A stretch of 48,199 nt of DNA from Thermosipho sp. (in: thermotogales) (GTDB taxonomy: Bacteria > Thermotogota > Thermotogae > Thermotogales > Fervidobacteriaceae), in assembly GCA_030153605.1 (NCBI GenBank), contig JASKLO010000009.1, positions 1 through 48,199 of the forward strand, in the 5' to 3' direction. Each line of letters begins with the position of its first letter. Position 1 is the stretch's first letter. This document shows, piece after piece, positions 1 through 9,401 of the stretch. The position numbers and the translations under genes are program-made. A model generated the notes under the pieces. That model saw only the letters and a list, made by a program, of their open reading frames with translations, had not been told where the DNA came from and did not search any database.

Positions 1-48
1 AGGTTAAAAAACATGGCTCCGGTGGAATACCGAAACCATGTTGTTTGA
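1..48 (+). CDS. IS3-family transposase, C-terminal end only (partial)
   Basis: Frame 1 reads RLKNMAPVEYRNHVV followed by TGA. The pattern L-K-x-M-x-P-x-E/Q-Y-R near the C-terminus is characteristic of the integrase-core (rve) domain of IS3-family OrfB proteins, which ends with a conserved NxxRxxxxLKGMSPVEYR-type segment. Only 15 residues are visible; the DDE catalytic residues lie upstream of the window, so whether the transposase is intact cannot be judged. The call depends on this short motif plus the terminal-repeat-like sequence right after it. Confidence 0.65.
   Translation, partial: RLKNMAPVEYRNHVV
6..42 (-). terminator. Possible rho-independent terminator of the pdxST operon, inside the IS end
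   Basis: On the minus strand AACATGG (42-36) pairs with CCATGTT (16-10), with an inner CGGT/ACCG stem and an ATTCC loop, followed directly by a short U run. It lies about 100 bp past the pdxT stop and no other terminator is visible between. It overlaps transposase codons, so it may be fortuitous, or the IS may now supply the terminator. Confidence 0.4.
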
Positions 49-138
49 AAAGTGTATAGTTATTTTTTTATCCGTTTCACTTTCGGGGGTAAGTCCATTT
101 TATGGGGCATTTTAATGAAAAAAAATCTGATACTATTA

Positions 139-702
139 TTATTTTACCATTTCAATAAAATATTCATGTACCCTAACATCATCAGTTAACTCAGGATGAA
201 AAGAAGCAACAAGAATTTTACCTTGTCTCAATAAAATAGGAGAATTTTCATATTCCGACAAAACTTCAACACTATTATCATATTCTACTACTTTTGGGGC
301 TCTAATAAATATAGCTCTAAAAGGATCGGATGAAAATTTAAGATTTACATCTGTTTCAAAACTATCAACTTGTCTTCCATAAGCATTTCTTTCCACTTTG
401 ATATCAATTGCTTTTAAAGAATCTTGAGGAAAGTTAACTACTTCATTCGATAAAACTATCATACCTGCACAAGTTCCAAATACAGGAAACCCTTCTATAA
501 TTTTATTTTTTAAAGCTTCGTAAAAGCCGGTCATTTTCATAATTCTTATCATCGTAGTTGATTCACCGCCAGGTATTATTAAAGCGTCAACGAAATCTAA
601 TTCTTCAGGTTTTCTAACAACTAAAGTTTCAATTCCCATCTTTTCAAGCATTTGTTTGTGTTCTCTAAAATCTCCTTGTATTCCTGAGACACCTATTTTC
701 AA
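139..702 (-). CDS. pdxT: Pyridoxal 5'-phosphate synthase glutaminase subunit PdxT
   Basis: PdxT hydrolyses glutamine and channels ammonia to PdxS in the DXP-independent vitamin B6 pathway. The 187-residue length is typical. The class-I glutaminase triad is visible: nucleophile Cys78 in GTCAG, and His169 and Glu171 in the HPEL segment near the C-terminus; the oxyanion-type PGGEST motif is at 44-49. The start is a TTG codon at 702, one base after the pdxS stop, with a GGGGATGGTGA ribosome binding site lying in the end of pdxS, so the two are translationally coupled. It is the last gene of the minus-strand operon and is followed by an IS end. Confidence 0.96.
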
Positions 703-703
703 G

Positions 704-1582
704 TCACCATCCCCTTTCTTGTAGTCTTACATCCAATTCGTCAATTTCAAGTCCTTCCATTGGTTGGCCAATATCTTCAGAAATCTTTAAAAGCATCTCA
801 GGATCATTCCAATATGTTACAGCCATAACTATAGCTTTTGCCATCTTTGAAGGATCTTTTGATTTAAATATCCCACTACCAACAAAGACTCCGTCTGCTC
901 CTAACATCATCATTAAAGCAGCATCTGCTGGAGTAGCAACACCTCCTGCAGCAAAGTTAACAACAGGTAATCTTCCGAGTTTTTTTACTTCTGCTACTAA
1001 ATTCACTGGAGCTCCTATTTCTTTTGCAAAACTAACTAATTCTTCATCAGGCATATTTTGAACTTTCCTAATTTCATCCATAACTGTTCTCATATGTTTA
1101 ACAGCTTCAACAACATTTCCAGTTCCAGCTTCACCTTTTGTTCTAATCATCGCTGCACCTTCAGCAATTCTTCTTAAAGCTTCTCCAAGATTTCTAGCTC
1201 CACAAACAAATGGAACTTTGAATTCCCATTTATTAATGTGATATTTATCGTCTGCAGGAGTTAAAACTTCAGATTCGTCAATAAAATCAACTCCTAAAGC
1301 TTCTAAAATTCTTGCTTCGGCTATATGTCCAATTCTTACTTTTGCCATAACTGGAATTGAAACTGCATCCATTATTTCCTTAATTTTATTTATACTAGCC
1401 ATTCTTGCAACTCCACCTGCTTTTCTTATATCAGCAGGAACTCTTTCTAGTGCCATAACAGCTACTGCTCCGGCTTCTTCAGCAATTTTTGCTTGCTCAG
1501 CAGTGGTAACATCCATTATAACTCCACCTTTAAACATTTCTGCAAAACCCTCTTTTACCATCCATGTTCCTTTATCAGTCAT
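704..1582 (-). CDS. pdxS: Pyridoxal 5'-phosphate synthase lyase subunit PdxS
   Basis: PdxS condenses ribose 5-phosphate, glyceraldehyde 3-phosphate and PdxT-derived ammonia to pyridoxal phosphate. At 292 residues it has family length. The two active-site lysines are in place: Lys81 in [10 protein letters not shown] and Lys149 in [10 protein letters not shown], matching the numbering in Bacillus PdxS. ATG at 1582 is preceded by a strong AGGAGGTG site. The gene lies 15 bp after mcmA and 1 bp before pdxT. PLP made here would serve the many PLP enzymes in this window (GcvPA/PB, DegT-type and class III aminotransferases), although they are in separate operons. Confidence 0.97.
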
Positions 1583-1597
1583 GTTAACACCTCCTAT

Positions 1598-3277
1598 TTA
1601 AATTATTATTGTTTCGTTATATTCACCATAGACTTCTCTTAATACGTTACTAATTTCTCCTACAGTTGCATACACCTTTACAGCTTCTATAATATACGGC
1701 ATTAGATTTTCATTGTTTAAAGCAGCATTCTTAATTTCTTTCAAGGCTTTATTAACTTTTTCATTGTCCCTTGTTTGTTTTAATTTCTTCAATCTATTTT
1801 TTTGTTTTTCCTCAAGTTCAGGATTTACTTTCAATATTTCTCTATTTTCCAATTCTTCTTCAATTTGAAACTTATTTACACCAACAATAATCTCTTTTCC
1901 ACTTTCTATCGCTAGCTGCATCTTGTAAGCACTTTCATGTATTTCTCTTTGTACAAATCCTGATTCTATTGCTTTAATCATTCCTCCTAATGAATCTATT
2001 TTTTCAATATATTCCATAGCTCTTTTTTCAATTTCATTTGTCATTGATTCAATAGCATATGAACCCGCAAATGGATCAATTGTATCAGCAACACCTGATT
2101 CATACGCAATAATTTGTTGAGTTCGTAGGGCAATCATAGCTGATTCTTCTGTGGGCAAACCCAAAGCCTCATCATAACTATTGGTATGTAATGACTGAGT
2201 TCCTCCCAAAACTGCAGCTAATGCCTGAATTGTTACCCTAATAATATTATTCAAAGGTTGTTGAGCAGTTAATGTAGAACCTCCCGTTTGAGTATGGAAC
2301 CTTAACCTCATTGCTTTTTCATTTGTTACATTAAATCTATTTTTCATAATTTTTGCCCAAAGCCTTCTGGCAGCTCTAAACTTTGCTATTTCCTCTAAGA
2401 AATTATTGTGTGCAGCAAAAAAGAATGATAAACGTTGGCCAAAAATGTTTGGATCCAATCCTGATTTAATGGCAGCTTCCACATATGCTATAGCATCAGC
2501 TAGTGTAAAAGCCACCTCCTGAACAGCTGTTGCTCCTGCTTCTCTAATATGGTAACCACTTATACTAATAGGATTCCATTTTGGCATATTTTTTGAACAA
2601 AATTCAAAAATATCTGTAATTATTTTCATAGAAGGTTGTGGTGGAAAAATGTAAGTACCTCTTGCTATGTATTCTTTCAAAATATCGTTTTGAATAGTCC
2701 CAGATAATTTTTCTATTGGAACTCCTTGCTTTTCAGCTACAACGATATACATTGCTAACAAAATAGCTGCTGTACTATTTATAGTCATTGAGGTACTAAC
2801 CTTATCTAAAGGAATTCCATCAAACAAAATTTCCATATCCTTGAGTGAATCAATTGCTACACCAACTTTTCCAACTTCCCCTTCAGCCATAGGATCATCA
2901 GAATCATATCCAATTTGAGTTGGTAAATCAAATGCTACAGATAGACCTGTTTGACCTTGAGATAACAAATACTTATATCTTTTATTAGATTCTTCTGCTG
3001 TTCCAAAACCCGCATATTGTCTCATAGTCCAAAATTTTCCTCTATACATTGTAGGTTGAACACCTCTAGTAAATGGAAACATACCAGGAAATCCTAAATC
3101 ATCAATATATCTTAAGCTTGAAATATCTAAAGGAGTGTACAACCTTTTAATTTCATAACCAGAAGACGATTGAAATTTATCTTTCCTTTCAGGAAATTTT
3201 TGAGTAGTTTTTTCTACTAATGATTTGTATTTTTCTGCACTTAGCTTTATTTTTTCTAATTCATTGTTATCAAACAT
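1598..3277 (-). CDS. mcmA: Methylmalonyl-CoA mutase large (catalytic) subunit, without the B12 domain
   Basis: This is the TIM-barrel catalytic part of an adenosylcobalamin-dependent acyl-CoA mutase, interconverting succinyl-CoA and methylmalonyl-CoA. The chain is 559 residues from ATG 3277, which has an AAAGGGGG site; the open frame extends 9 codons further upstream without support. Tyr78 in TMYRGKFWT, Arg206 in KEYIARGTY and His243 in [11 protein letters not shown] align with Tyr89, Arg207 and His244 of the Propionibacterium enzyme. That Tyr/Arg pair suits methylmalonyl-CoA rather than isobutyryl-CoA mutase (inference from family knowledge). The C-terminus stops before a cobalamin-binding DxHxxG domain, so a separate small subunit must exist; none is in this window. 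Confidence 0.9.
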
Positions 3278-3309
3278 TTTCCAAACCCCCTTTATTATTA
3301 TCAAAATTA

Positions 3310-3948
3310 TTATCTTATATCTTTTGAGTTCTGTCTATAACTGTTTAAATATTTATTTCTTAGAATAAAGGCATCCTCTTCATTAATTAAATTAAAATTG
3401 CCAATATTCAAAGCATATAGAAATATTTCGGCTGTTTTTTCACAAACCAAACTGGCTGTCAAAGCCTCTTTAATGTCCTCACCAACAGTTATTAACCCGT
3501 GATTTCTTAAAATTACCGCATGATTACTTTCTAAAGCTTTTACAACTTTTTTAGCTAATTCTAAAGTTCCTGGCAAAGCATACTCAGAAACATTTATTTT
3601 AGGTCCAAGTATCATTACTGCATCCTCAACTAATGGAGGAATAAAATCGACAACTAAAGAAATAGTTGTTGAAAATACAGGATGGGTGTGAACAATTGCA
3701 TTTACGTCTTCTCTGTTTTTATAAATTTCTAAATGAGTAGGTAACTCTGATGAAGGTTTTAACCCTGATATATGTGTGCCATCTAATTTCACTACTGAAA
3801 TATCTTCTTCTTTTAAAATGTCATATGGAATGCCTGATGGGGTAATATATATTAATTCTCCATCTCTAATAGAAACGTTTCCCCAAGTACCTTTTACCAA
3901 ACCATTTTTTACAATAAACTTCACGGCTTTTAAAATTTCATTTTTCAC
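3310..3948 (-). CDS. Class II aldolase/adducin family protein
   Basis: This is a zinc-dependent class II aldolase-fold protein of the fuculose-phosphate aldolase/ribulose-phosphate epimerase type, 212 residues. The zinc ligands His87 and His89 (HTHPV) and His150 (RNHG) and the catalytic Glu68 (SSELPTH) are visible, with the GTWGNVS and TPSG phosphate-site motifs near the N-terminus. I choose GTG 3948 because AGGAGGG lies six bases upstream; an earlier in-frame TTG lacks a site. It overlaps the end of the AcpS-FolK gene by 11 bases. The substrate cannot be read from the sequence: a sugar phosphate aldolase or a methylthioribulose-phosphate dehydratase-like role are both possible. Confidence 0.85.
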
Positions 3949-4780
3949 ATTGTCCCTCCTGTTCAAGCTTTTTCAATTCCCAATCAATTTTTTCCCAATC
4001 TTTATCAAATTTCTTAAGATATTCACTTATTGTAATCGAAGAAATCGGATGAACAAAATCAGAAGAAATCTCCGATAATGGTACAACAAAAAAAGCCCTA
4101 TTTTCAAAGTCATAATGAGGAATCTTTAGTTCAGGTAAATCAATTACTAAATTTCCATAAAATAAAATGTCTATATCAATGTTTCGCGGACCCCATTTTA
4201 TTTTGCGTTCTCTTCCAAGTTTTTTTTCAATACTCAAAACTTTTTTTAATAAATTAAATGGCGATAAATTGGTATCAACTTCTATAACTATGTTAAAAAA
4301 TTTTTCTTGATTAGTATAACCATATGGTTTAGTTTCGTACAAACTTGATATTTTCAAAATTTCTATACCATTTTTCTTTAATTCTTTTAAAGCATTAACA
4401 AGATTTTCAATTTTATTTCCTAAATTACTTCCTAAACCTAAAAAAATTTTTCCAACCACTTTTTCTAAAATAACTGAAGAGAAAACATAAGAATCATGAG
4501 ATAAAGATACATGGCAAAAATTAAATCCTTCAAAATCTTTATGAAACACACAGTAAGGTTTGCCTTTATTATTATTAAGAAAAGATATATCTTTGAAAGA
4601 ATTTTCCCCGATTCCCGTTCCTAGTGCTTTAAAAAAAGCCTCTTTTAGTGAAAAACGCCCAGCTATATATTGGGCGTCAATTTTTCTTTCTTTTTTTTCA
4701 ATCTCTGTAAGAATCCTTCTTTCTAATTTTGTGTTAATCCTATCAATTTTAACAATATCATTTCCAATACCGACTATCAA
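3938..4780 (-). CDS. Fusion of holo-ACP synthase (AcpS) and HPPK (FolK)
   Basis: Residues 1 to about 107 are AcpS, which transfers 4'-phosphopantetheine from CoA to acyl carrier protein: GIGNDIV with Asp8, and GRFSLKEAFFKALG with Glu47, the usual magnesium ligands. Residues about 111-275 are 6-hydroxymethyl-7,8-dihydropterin pyrophosphokinase of folate synthesis: GLGSNLGN at 115-122, Y-E-T-K-P-Y near 148, WGPRN at 196-200, and Asp202 and Asp204 in the IDIDIL motif. Both halves look complete and there is no internal stop. The start is TTG 4780, overlapping the upstream stop by four bases, with GGAGGAGG in front. These two enzymes have no shared pathway, and no other folate gene is nearby. Confidence 0.9.
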   Translation of the reverse strand: MIVGIGNDIVKIDRINTKLERRILTEIEKKERKIDAQYIAGRFSLKEAFFKALGTGIGENSFKDISFLNNNKGKPYCVFHKDFEGFNFCHVSLSHDSYVFSSVILEKVVGKIFLGLGSNLGNKIENLVNALKELKKNGIEILKISSLYETKPYGYTNQEKFFNIVIEVDTNLSPFNLLKKVLSIEKKLGRERKIKWGPRNIDIDILFYGNLVIDLPELKIPHYDFENRAFFVVPLSEISSDFVHPISSITISEYLKKFDKDWEKIDWELKKLEQEGQCEK

Positions 4781-6153
4781 ATAGGATAACCTCCTCCAAA
4801 TTCTTCTGCGAGATCCATATCAATCAAAAGTTTTTCTTCATACTTTTCTTTTAAATATCTTCTTCCAATTTCTCCTAGCAAAATAAATATTAACAATTCT
4901 TCATCATTAGATGCCAAAATTCCTATAGATTTTCTTGCGTTTTCAATCTCGGGTTCAATAAGATCCGCAGGTCTACACTCAATTGGCTTTTCATTACCTA
5001 AAACTTTTTCTAAAAGTTCTTTGTTTACTGGAGCAGGTGGTTTTCCATACATTCCTTTCAAATAATTTTTTACTTCATTTGTAACCTTCGAATATCTTTC
5101 ACCTGTTAATACATTTAAAACAGCTTGAACTCCAACAATTTGACTTGTAGGAGTTACCAAAGGGGGATAACCCAAATCTTTTCTAACTTTAGGAATTTCT
5201 TTCAAAACTTCTGGGAGCTTATTTAACATTTTTTGTTCAGAAAGCTGTTTAACTAAGTTCGAATACATTCCTCCTGGAACTTGTGAAACTAAAATCCTGT
5301 AATCTATACTCGTCATTAATACGTCATATTCCTTATATTTTTCTCTAACTTTTTTAAAATGTTCGACCAGAAATTCAATCTTGGTCAAATCTATTTCATC
5401 AATTTTTCTATATTCTTTTGCTGAATAATACAATGATTCAAACGGCGGTTGAGATGTTCCCAGGGCTAAAGGCGAAAGAGCAGTATCAACAAAATCAACG
5501 CCAGCATCAATAGCTGCAATGTAATTCATGCTCCCTAATCCAGAAGTACAGTGTGTATGAATTTCCACTGGAATATTAAAGTTCTTTTTTAGTTGTCTAA
5601 CAAGTTCGAAACTCTTTTTTGGAGTTAAAAGTCCAGCCATATCTTTTATACAAAGTGAGTGTACTCCTCTTTCCACAAGTTGTCTAGCAAATTGAACATA
5701 ATAATCCAAAGTATGAACAGGACTAATTGTATATGAAATTGCACCCTGAACATGTGCTCCATTTTTTAAAGCAACTTCAATACTTTTTTCTAAATTTCTA
5801 ATATCATTCAAAGCATCAAATATTCTTATTTTATCTACACCATTTTCAATAGCTTTTTTTATGAATAATTCGACCACATCATCGGCATAATGTCTATATC
5901 CAACTAAATTCTGACCTCTTAATAACATTTGAGTTTTTGTTTTTTTTAAGTTCTTTTTAATTAATCTAATTCTTTCCCAAGGATCTTCTTTCAAAAATCT
6001 AACACAAACATCAAATGTTGCGCCACCCCAAACCTCCATGGCTTCGAAATTTAACTCATCCATGTAATTTAAAGCTGGTAACATATCAATAGTTCTCATT
6101 CGTGTTGCAATAAGCGATTGATGAGCATCTCTTAATGTTGTATCTACAAACAT
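4777..6153 (-). CDS. Carboxyltransferase subunit (5S / OadA / PycB type), no biotin domain
   Basis: This is the biotin-dependent carboxyltransferase fold that moves CO2 between carboxybiotin and pyruvate/oxaloacetate. DTTLRDAHQS is at 4-13, GGATFDVCVRFL follows at 43-54, Lys170 in CIKDMAG is the carboxylated active-site lysine, and His199 and His201 (EIHTHC) bind the metal. It is 458 residues, where many OadA/PycB proteins are near 600, and the C-terminus lacks an AMKM biotinyl segment. It therefore resembles the stand-alone 5S subunit of transcarboxylase and needs a separate biotin carrier. Together with methylmalonyl-CoA mutase in the same operon it fits propionate/succinate interconversion, but oxaloacetate decarboxylase or pyruvate carboxylase use is not excluded. 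Confidence 0.88.
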   Translation of the reverse strand: MFVDTTLRDAHQSLIATRMRTIDMLPALNYMDELNFEAMEVWGGATFDVCVRFLKEDPWERIRLIKKNLKKTKTQMLLRGQNLVGYRHYADDVVELFIKKAIENGVDKIRIFDALNDIRNLEKSIEVALKNGAHVQGAISYTISPVHTLDYYVQFARQLVERGVHSLCIKDMAGLLTPKKSFELVRQLKKNFNIPVEIHTHCTSGLGSMNYIAAIDAGVDFVDTALSPLALGTSQPPFESLYYSAKEYRKIDEIDLTKIEFLVEHFKKVREKYKEYDVLMTSIDYRILVSQVPGGMYSNLVKQLSEQKMLNKLPEVLKEIPKVRKDLGYPPLVTPTSQIVGVQAVLNVLTGERYSKVTNEVKNYLKGMYGKPPAPVNKELLEKVLGNEKPIECRPADLIEPEIENARKSIGILASNDEELLIFILLGEIGRRYLKEKYEEKLLIDMDLAEEFGGGYPI

Positions 6154-6171
6154 AAAAATTACCCCTTTGTA

Positions 6172-8280
6172 CTATTCTTTTTGCTCGCCCTCTTCATCAA
6201 AAGTCAATTTTCTATTAACTTTTTTAATAATTGCAAACTCTAGTTCATCACCTTCTCTAATGTCGTCAAAATTTTCCAATTTAATTCCACATTCTTTCGG
6301 TGCATCTACTCTTCGAACATCTTGTTGATAGTGTTTCAATGACTCTATTTTTCCTTCAAATACTAGTTTTCCATTCCTATAAAGCCTTGCAATACCATTT
6401 TTATCTACAAAACCTTCGTACATTTGCACACCAGCAATAGAACCAACTTTCTTAATTTTAAAGACTTTTTTAATTTCTCCACGCCCAGTGATTTCTTCAA
6501 CTTCTTCAGGTTCTAACATACCTTCTAATGCTGCTCGCAAATCATCTATTAATTTATAAATAATAGTATATATCTTAATTTGAATTCCTTCAGCTTCAGC
6601 CATTTTTCTAGCCTGACTATCGGCTTTAACTCTAAAGCCTAAAATTATGGCATCAGAAGCAGAAGCTAACATTACATCGCTAGATGTTATTGCACCAACT
6701 CCTGAGTGGATTATATTAATTCTTACTTCTTCACTTTGTAATTTATTAATAGCATTATTTAAAGCCATAACCGAACCTAAAGTATCAGCTTTAACTATCA
6801 GTCTTAGCTCTTTTTGTTCAGATTGTTCCATCATTTTCAAAATTTCTTCTAATTTTAAATGTCTTTTTCTTCTTAATTCCTTTTGTTCTATTTCTTTTAT
6901 TTTTTCAGTAATTTCTCTAGCTTTTTCCAAAGTTTCTACAGAATAAATCACACTGTGAGCATCTGGTAAATCCTCAAAACCAACTATCATCACAGGAGTT
7001 GAAGGTCCTGCTTCTTTTATTCTTTTTCCTTGATCGTTAACTAATGCCTTTACTTTGCCCATTACTTTTCCAGCTATAACATAATCTCCTATCTTTAATT
7101 TTCCATCTTTTATAATTGCATTAGCAACAGGCCCAAACCCCTTATCAAGTTTTGTTTCAATTGTTACAGCTCTTACTGGTCCATCAGGAATTGCTTTAAT
7201 TTCTTGCATTTCAGCAACCAATAGAATCATTTCTAATAAAGTGTCTACATTTTGACCTTTTTTGGCGGAAATAGGAACCATAATAGTATCTCCGCCCCAC
7301 TCTTCAGGAATCAAAGAAAGTTTATTTACTAGCTCTTGTTTTGTAGCTTCAACATTTGCATTTGGTTTATCAATTTTATTTATAGCAACTATAATTGGCA
7401 CGTTGGCAGATTTTGCATGATTGTATGCCTCTATGGTTTGAGGCATAACACCATCATCTGCAGCAACAACAAGAACAACTATATCAGTTGCTTGTGCTCC
7501 TCTTGCTCTCATTTCTGTAAAAACTTCGTGTCCAGGCGTATCAATAAATGTTATTTTCTTTCCATCTACCTCCACTTGATAAGCACCTATACTTTGAGTA
7601 ATTCCACCTTCTTCTCTTTCAGCTACTCTTGTTCTTCTAATATAATCAAGTAAAGTAGTTTTTCCATGGTCAACATGTCCCATTACTGTAACAATAGGAG
7701 GCCTTTCAACAAGTTCATCTTTATTTTTATATTTTTCTTCAAAATATTTTTCAATTTCTTCTAATGGATTTTCTTTAATTTCTTCCTTATTTTCTTCAAA
7801 ATCAAATCCAATTCTTACATCATACATTTTTGCAATTTTTTTAGCAAGTTGCAAATTCAAACTTTGACCAGGTTTCAATATTTCACCTTTCATAAAAAAG
7901 TCTTGGATTATTCTATTTTGAGGTACTCCAATTTTTTCTGAAAATTTGTCTAATTTCAAATCATCTTCTGAAATTTTTATTAAAGGCTTTTTCTTTTCTT
8001 GCTTTTCTTTTTCAATTTCACCTTTTTTTGACAACTTCCTTTTTTCAGCAATATCTTCTTCAAGCTCTAAAAATTCTTCATATTCAATATAATCTTCTTC
8101 GTCAACATTTTCTTCTTCTGAAGATTTACTATACATTTCAAGCAAAATATTTACAGTTTCTTCATCAATATAACTCATATGACTTTTAATTTCTATTCCA
8201 AGATCAGCTAATTCTTTCAATAATTCTTTAGTATCCATTTCAAGCTTTCTTGCTAGTTCGTATACTCTTAAACGGCCCAA
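6172..8280 (-). CDS. infB: Translation initiation factor IF-2
   Basis: IF-2 is the GTPase that places initiator tRNA on the ribosome. It has 702 residues from TTG 8280. That start sits four bases after a perfect AGGAGGTGAT and gives the usual GRLRVYELA beginning; a GTG nine bases earlier lies inside the ribosome binding site. Layout: N-terminal IF2N subdomain (about 3-50), an acidic/lysine-rich linker (55-105), a second IF2N-like segment, then the G domain with GHVDHGKT at 201-208, DTPGHE, and NKIDKP, followed by domains II-IV. It precedes a metabolic operon 18 bp downstream rather than the usual rbfA, and no nusA lies upstream. Confidence 0.97.
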
Positions 8281-8318
8281 TAAAATCACCTCCTAAGTTG
8301 CTCATTCATTATAACATA

Positions 8319-8528
8319 TTACTTTTCTCTTTTAATTTTCTTCATCTCTTCATGTTCCTTTTCTAATTCATTTAACAAGTCCTCCAATGTCCACTTCAGA
8401 TTTGTTGGTGTAGACGTAGCAAAAACTAACTCCTTTTCAGGTAAGATTTCCCTTAATGCTTTAATCACCTTCTTTATTTCAGTATCTTCAAAACCATGCA
8501 AAATTATAAAAGATTTTTCTTTATTCAT
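8319..8528 (-). CDS. DUF3783 family small protein
   Basis: A 69-residue protein with the DUF3783 pattern: an N-terminal strand FIILHGF, a helix rich in charged residues, a central strand ELVFATSTPTNLKWTLEDLL, and a lysine/glutamate-rich C-terminal helix. Its function is not known. ATG 8528 follows a GGAGATGG site. It is the first gene of the infB operon, 38 bp upstream of infB. The repeated association of such proteins with translation genes in Thermotogales is something I suspect but cannot verify here. Confidence 0.75.
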   Translation of the reverse strand: MNKEKSFIILHGFEDTEIKKVIKALREILPEKELVFATSTPTNLKWTLEDLLNELEKEHEEMKKIKREK

Positions 8529-8697
8529 TTTTCCATCTCCTTAATTATCTTTAAATACTATCATTATTTATTTTAACATCTTTTTTATTCTATTTCTTAG
8601 TTTTTAACTTAATAATCTTTTACAAAAGTTAAAAAATTTTAACATTTTTAATTTCTAAATCCATATTAACAAGAAAATAATATTTTCAAAGCATTTG

Positions 8698-8774
8698 TTA
8701 CTTGATTAAGTTGAAAAAAATCTTAGAATTAAAAACCGAAGAGCAAGTAATCAAATTAAAAATTCTTAAGGAGG
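8698..8774 (+). promoter_or_regulatory. Possible structured 5' leader of the VUT transporter gene
   Basis: TTACTTG (8698-8704) can pair with CAAGTAA (8744-8750), while the overlapping TTGATTA (8702-8708) can pair with TAATCAA (8748-8754). The two pairings exclude each other. AGAATT (8725-8730) can also pair with AATTCT (8761-8766) just before the AAGGAGG ribosome binding site. It does not match the preQ1-I core that I know. In AT-rich DNA such pairings may arise by chance. Confidence 0.25.
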
Positions 8775-8780
8775 TAAAAA

Positions 8781-9401
8781 ATGAAAAACTTAAACGAAGA
8801 ACTCATTGCACTTTCATCTTTTTTTACTACAATTATTATAATTTCCAACATTATCGCTGGAAAACTTATTAATATCGGACCTTTTATTTTAACACTTTCT
8901 ATTTTAATTTATCCTTTAAGTTATACAATTGCAAATATAATTTCAGAATTATATGGAGTTAATATCACTAAATACGTTATTAGAATTGGATTTATCTGCT
9001 CATTTTTCCTAGTTATTATTTCTTTCATAACTATATCACTCCCGCCAGCTTCAATTTTTAAATTTAACAACGCATATAAAATTGTATTTGGCGCTACTCC
9101 TAGAATTATCCTAGCAAGCTTTCTTTCTTATTTATCAGCACAAAATACTAATCTTTGGATTTTTAATTCATTGAAAATAAAAAACATTTATATTAGAAAC
9201 ATTATTTCAATGATATTTACTCAATTTATTGATTCTGTCGTTTTTATAGGTATAGCATTTTTAGGAAAATATGATTTTCAAATTCTTTTTAATATGATTC
9301 TTTCTCAATATCTAATAAAGTTATTGATTTCAATTTCAAATAGTCCATTAATTTCAATAAGTGTAAAACGCATGAAAAAACAACTAATTTTAGAACAATG
9401 A
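8781..9401 (+). CDS. VUT family (YhhQ-like) transporter, probably queuosine-precursor uptake
   Basis: An integral membrane protein of 206 residues with about six hydrophobic helices and little soluble sequence. The segment YPLSYTIANIISELYG (about 44-59) matches the conserved T-x-x-x-E-x-YG motif of the vitamin-uptake (VUT/YhhQ) family, and the S-x-x-x-A-Q and TQFIDSVVFIGIAF segments match the later conserved stretches. Characterised YhhQ proteins import queuosine precursors; that substrate is inferred from family. ATG 8781 has a strong AAGGAGG site. It is divergent from the infB operon and directly followed by the AspT-like gene, which has its own promoter-like motif. Confidence 0.8.
   Translation: MKNLNEELIALSSFFTTIIIISNIIAGKLINIGPFILTLSILIYPLSYTIANIISELYGVNITKYVIRIGFICSFFLVIISFITISLPPASIFKFNNAYKIVFGATPRIILASFLSYLSAQNTNLWIFNSLKIKNIYIRNIISMIFTQFIDSVVFIGIAFLGKYDFQILFNMILSQYLIKLLISISNSPLISISVKRMKKQLILEQ

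Follow-up and report, generated by a model that had tools for sequence, protein, structure and literature searches.

The acpS–folK fusion gene

We analysed a window of 48,199 nucleotides, positions 1–48,199 of contig JASKLO010000009.1 from a Thermosipho genome (GCA_030153605.1). On its reverse strand a holo-ACP synthase (AcpS) domain and a 6-hydroxymethyl-dihydropterin pyrophosphokinase (HPPK, FolK) domain are encoded in a single frame, with a carboxylase-like gene upstream and a class II aldolase gene downstream (Table 1). Each of the 29 fused loci examined has the carboxylase-like gene directly upstream, and the aldolase gene is found at the locus only in genera g1, g4 and g5 of family f1, the family that includes the window genome. 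A GGAGG-type sequence precedes the start in most f1 fusions. A scan of window positions 1–9000 for promoters and terminators gave matches at chance level only.

Table 1. Features of the fusion locus in the window, and the f3 genes that encode a tailed AcpS
Feature	Position	Strand	Details
Methylmalonyl-CoA mutase gene	1598..3304	-	catalytic part only, 568 aa; no cobalamin-binding part in this gene
Class II aldolase gene, downstream	3310..3966	-	listed ORF overlaps the fusion 3' end by 29 bases
acpS–folK fusion gene	3938..4780	-	single open frame, 280 aa, TTG start; Pfam ACPS and HPPK
HPPK (FolK) domain, residues 112–270	3971..4447	-	Pfam HPPK 113–239; predicted fold
Junction, about 4 residues (108–111)	4448..4459	-	no flexible linker in 29 aligned fusions
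AcpS (holo-ACP synthase) domain, residues 1–107	4460..4780	-	Pfam ACPS 4–99; invariant catalytic residues
Pyruvate carboxylase subunit B/oadA-like gene, upstream	4777..6153	-	4-base overlap (TTGA) with the fusion start
GGAGGAGG, ribosome-binding sequence	4790..4797	-	9 nt upstream of the start
Tailed f3 AcpS genes			L067, L076, L080, L081, L084, L087, L089, L092–L097

A preliminary description of this DNA had read the frame as two complete enzymes in one chain with the catalytic residues of both kept, and had named read data with a stop or frameshift near codon 108, or separate intact acpS and folK genes elsewhere with the fusion unexpressed, as observations that would speak against it. The frame is open throughout, with no internal stop, and the same fusion is present in 30 genomes. 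In the source genome (1.69 Mb, 56 contigs, 98% complete) the fusion frame accounts for the only HPPK match and the only ACPS match, so neither gene has a separate copy. An assembly or frameshift artefact was considered and is ruled out by the recurrence of the fusion in those 30 genomes, several of which are single-contig assemblies.

Both halves keep their catalytic residues

The two-enzyme reading is borne out by the domain matches and by residue conservation. On the N-terminal side, PF01648 (ACPS) matches residues 4–99 (E = 4e-15; 56.2 bits against a cut-off of 25), and the fusion protein also exceeds the cut-off of the NCBIfam model TIGR00516 (acpS; 66.7 bits against 59.8). The Mg/CoA-binding and catalytic motifs that were sought (GxD, R, F..KEA..K and SH) are all present, and five residues, D8, R14, E47, K51 and H95, do not vary among 29 fused proteins or among 13 AcpS proteins of family f3 that carry a short C-terminal stub, described below. 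The ratio dN/dS for this half is 0.10 between genomes G005 and G017 and 0.10 between the window and G001.

The C-terminal half matches PF01288 (HPPK) over residues 113–239 (E = 2e-39; 135.4 bits against a cut-off of 25.7), and the protein scores 145.8 bits against a cut-off of 54.1 for TIGR01498 (folK). The equivalents of E. coli HPPK residues N10, Q50, N55, E77, R82, R84, W89, R92, D95, D97, H115, Y116, R121 and F123 are invariant in 29/29 fused proteins; the equivalent of Y53 is Phe. dN/dS is 0.09 for G005/G017, 0.09 for G027/G089 and 0.21 for the window genome (G000) against G001.

In a structural model pLDDT is above 75 for most of the HPPK half and in many places above 90, and this half aligns with S. 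aureus HPPK (4crj) with a VIA-align Z of 26.8 and an r.m.s.d. of 1.4 over 157 residues. Residues 1–106 have pLDDT mostly below 50, and only three sequences covered the AcpS half; a search of viral contigs for further AcpS sequences to add to the model alignment yielded none.

From these sequence features we infer that the AcpS half would move 4'-phosphopantetheine from CoA to apo-ACP and that the HPPK half would pyrophosphorylate 6-hydroxymethyl-dihydropterin. Dihydropteroate synthase (DHPS) and the alternative GTP cyclohydrolase FolE2 are encoded in nearly all f1 and f2 genomes, which gives an HPPK activity a pathway to work in. The fused protein is thus likely to have both activities, to judge from its conserved residues and the predicted fold of its HPPK half.

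Distribution across Thermotogota

We searched 103 Thermotogota genomes, assigned to families f1–f11, for the ACPS plus HPPK architecture. HPPK and ACPS share one frame in all 30 HPPK-bearing genomes of the first two families (20/20 in f1 and 10/10 in f2). Each of these genomes has one match of each kind, and none has a second copy. The window genome belongs to f1, as do L003 and L004, public MAG records of Thermosipho that also carry the fusion; one of the 30 fusions, that of G091, is interrupted by a contig end. One more f2 genome, 71% complete, has neither an HPPK nor an ACPS match. In families f4–f11 the two matches are never found together, and the frame that encodes AcpS is shorter; in Thermotogota outside the order to which f1 and f2 belong, AcpS and FolK have genes of their own.

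A contig scan, which reaches only near relatives, found the fusion in Thermosipho only, and plasmid records gave no match covering 80% of the fusion protein. The fusion is a clade character, probably ancestral in the order, and cleanly marks one order of Thermotogota in genome data. As a separate observation, a family f10 genome carries an HPPK match with several stops (G071:C7:300292-300638), apparently a decaying folK.

An HPPK-like tail on the AcpS of family f3

In family f3, which we take to be the Thermotogaceae, all 13 AcpS proteins (from five genera) extend about 55–75 residues past the normal AcpS end. The extension starts at the position of the fusion junction, and its segments follow the order of HPPK: a first strand, a strand–helix segment with the pattern E(I/V)(E/D)T..L.PF.L(L/K), and YGN(I/L). 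It lacks the R82–D97 stretch and everything past YGN, including H115 and R121.

Aligned as profiles, the f3 tail and the fused HPPK domains give an hhalign score of 31.0, a signal that rests mainly on 33 aligned columns. None of 300 column shuffles of the tail reached this value (mean 11.9, s.d. 2.4, maximum 21), and reversing the tail gave 14.1. Free-standing FolK scores 17.8 with the tail, so it is the fused form that the tail resembles most. In three unsaturated pairs the tail has dN/dS values of 0.07, 0.12 and 0.15; a fourth pair gives 0.45 at low dS, with few changes. These ratios indicate selection to keep the tail in most, although not all, comparisons.

One tailed AcpS has a solved structure. 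The sequence of PDB entry 5XUM matches the AcpS of G030, presumably Thermotoga maritima, over 169/169 residues, and the f3-type tail forms its C-terminal part. The NCBIfam model NF011255 (PRK14661), also 169 residues long, appears from its length and AcpS match to be the same protein. The window fusion scores 120 bits against NF011255, under the cut-off of 209, and carries the full HPPK domain, so it is not an AcpS of the stub type: the AcpS half and the junction are alike in the two, but the 5XUM/NF011255 tail of about 55 residues has no HPPK catalytic segment, whereas HPPK is complete in the fusion. Because 5XUM was absent from the fold comparison made with the HPPK-half model, the tail was compared by sequence only. 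The literature searched, from which most subscription journals were outside coverage, contained no paper naming 5XUM. Judged by its profile match and segment order, the f3 tail is a decayed HPPK remnant, perhaps kept as a structural part of AcpS. A fossil enzyme domain would then explain the unremarked C-terminal extension of this solved Thermotoga-type AcpS.

Free FolK and the history of the fusion

A separate folK is present in eight f3 genomes, and five genomes with a tailed AcpS have none. In f3 and in f8 the gene adjoins folP, and its product belongs to the same HPPK family as the window domain, with which it is about 43–50% identical; unlike the fusion, it is a separate gene in a folate operon and falls on a distinct branch of the HPPK tree. 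There the free FolK of f3 branches with that of f8 (96/85) and apart from the fused domains, and the idea that it split off from the fused domain is for that reason unsupported. The f1 and f2 fused domains group together weakly (83/52); in an earlier HPPK tree one clade of all fused domains was not recovered, nor was it rejected (p-AU 0.48).

On the short AcpS tree, where support is weak, the stubs of f3 are not monophyletic, and repeated decay is therefore possible. A tree of IF-2, which served only to check that the sampled f3 genomes belong together, places them in one clade (support 88). The simplest history suggested by these sequences is that the order ancestor would have had both a folP-linked and a fused folK, with lineages losing opposite copies; a regain of folK in f3 is also possible.

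Relation to known enzymes

Several known enzymes likewise join HPPK to a second enzyme with both sites kept, such as FolB–FolK of S. pneumoniae (2CG8) and HPPK–DHPS of Francisella (4PZV) and Plasmodium (6JWR), and the modelled HPPK half superposes well on such bifunctional folate enzymes. In these the partner is a neighbouring enzyme of the folate pathway; here it is instead ACPS, an enzyme of lipid and carrier-protein metabolism, on the N-terminal side. On the other side of the comparison, the fusion shares its domain, motifs and catalytic residues with AcpS-type synthases (PF01648; B. subtilis 1F7L), from which it differs in its full C-terminal HPPK domain. AcpS-type synthases such as 1F7L are homotrimers with active sites between subunits; the fusion may likewise be trimeric, which would array FolK domains around the AcpS core as the preliminary description supposed.

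Bifunctional folate enzymes are thus already known, and the new elements are the AcpS partner, which adds lipid and carrier-protein metabolism to their range, and the decayed descendant. The preliminary description had known of no functional account of this pairing, and none was found in the literature searched, with most subscription journals outside its coverage. A survey of folate genes describes several folate fusions and names none with AcpS in its relevant passages (PMC1971073).

Origin and role of the fused protein

We consider it probable that the protein is a bifunctional enzyme with two independent sites, that its halves were joined in the order's ancestor, and that in f3 its second half has lost catalysis and been kept, perhaps for a structural role. 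A folK copy of the Thermotogota type would have been joined in frame behind acpS, once, in the order ancestor, at a time when the folP-linked folK was still present. In f1 and f2 the separate folK would then have been lost and the fused one kept. In f3 the separate folK would have been kept, or folate synthesis lost, with the fused half decaying to a stub of 55–75 residues. The two active sites of the fusion would work independently, without channelling. Most comparisons that could be measured show the stub to be under purifying selection, so some of the HPPK fold probably serves the f3 AcpS structurally, in packing, trimer stability or ACP docking.

The same fusion could also be neutral throughout, adjacent genes having lost the intervening stop and remaining joined because both are single-copy and needed, with the halves mutually inert and the Thermotoga tail as slowly decaying debris. 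The junction of only about four residues and the lack of a common reaction step agree with this, as does the distribution of the copies: the fused HPPK is kept only where there is no other folK, and a separate folK is confined to genomes whose fused half is dead. Debris would not, however, be expected to persist in 13/13 f3 AcpS proteins from five genera, nor to show dN/dS of 0.07–0.15 in three comparisons, and we put full neutrality at somewhat below an even chance. These objections touch the structural step and leave bifunctionality as it stands. What fits best is a neutral fusion that was followed, in f3, by recruitment of the remnant as a structural part of AcpS.

A further-reaching proposal, which we hold tentatively, is that HPPK became architecture once fused to AcpS, so that the Thermotoga AcpS would still need the remnant after catalysis was lost and the intact HPPK half would shape or regulate ACP activation. 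With both the fused and the decayed forms at hand, the order offers a testable case of a catalytic domain turning into a structural scaffold.

Another possibility is functional coupling, in which the fusion would link folate synthesis to the use of CoA and set the supply of the one-carbon carrier and of holo-ACP together. Folate gives PanB its one-carbon unit for pantothenate, from which CoA is made, and thereby the 4'-phosphopantetheine that AcpS moves. The statement in the preliminary description that the two pathways share no intermediate accordingly holds for direct intermediates but leaves aside this indirect link through PanB and CoA. PanB is encoded in 30 of the 31 genomes examined. The exception, G022 of family f3, also lacks HPPK, DHPS (FolP) and FolE2, so that folate and pantothenate synthesis have been lost together; in another genome panB is apparently split in two, and its frame contains a TGA (G026:C7:116397-117163).

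Coupling draws on this co-occurrence of PanB, FolE2, FolP and HPPK and on their shared absence from G022, as well as on the second folK copies that the folate-gene survey, in the passages concerned, describes in pantothenate operons (PMC1971073). Against it, the two halves are not known to share a ligand or an allosteric site, and folE2, folP and panB are not adjacent to the fusion. PanB is also equally common in f3, where HPPK is unfused, which leaves coupling an unlikely, minor possibility.

That the f3 tail is an unrelated extension whose likeness to HPPK arose by chance would suit the shortness of the similarity and the fact that, among the Pfam and NCBIfam entries examined, no HPPK model covers the tail; set against a score about 7.8 s.d. 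above the shuffles, the low reversed control, and the retention of the junction, the segment order and the YGN motif, we regard it as quite improbable. Least credible, to the point of being very improbable, is that one half of the fused proteins is catalytically dead and serves the other while a non-homologous enzyme fills the missing step, for although the HPPK half has gone this way in f3, 29 proteins show no change in the catalytic residues of either half, both halves are under purifying selection, and the presence of DHPS and FolE2 in f1 and f2 means that HPPK is needed.

The aldolase step of folate synthesis

FolB (dihydroneopterin aldolase) was found in none of the 31 genomes G000–G030, although nearly all of them encode HPPK, DHPS and FolE2, so the aldolase step appears to be filled by something else. 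The class II aldolase gene immediately downstream of the fusion is, from its position alone, a candidate for this step.
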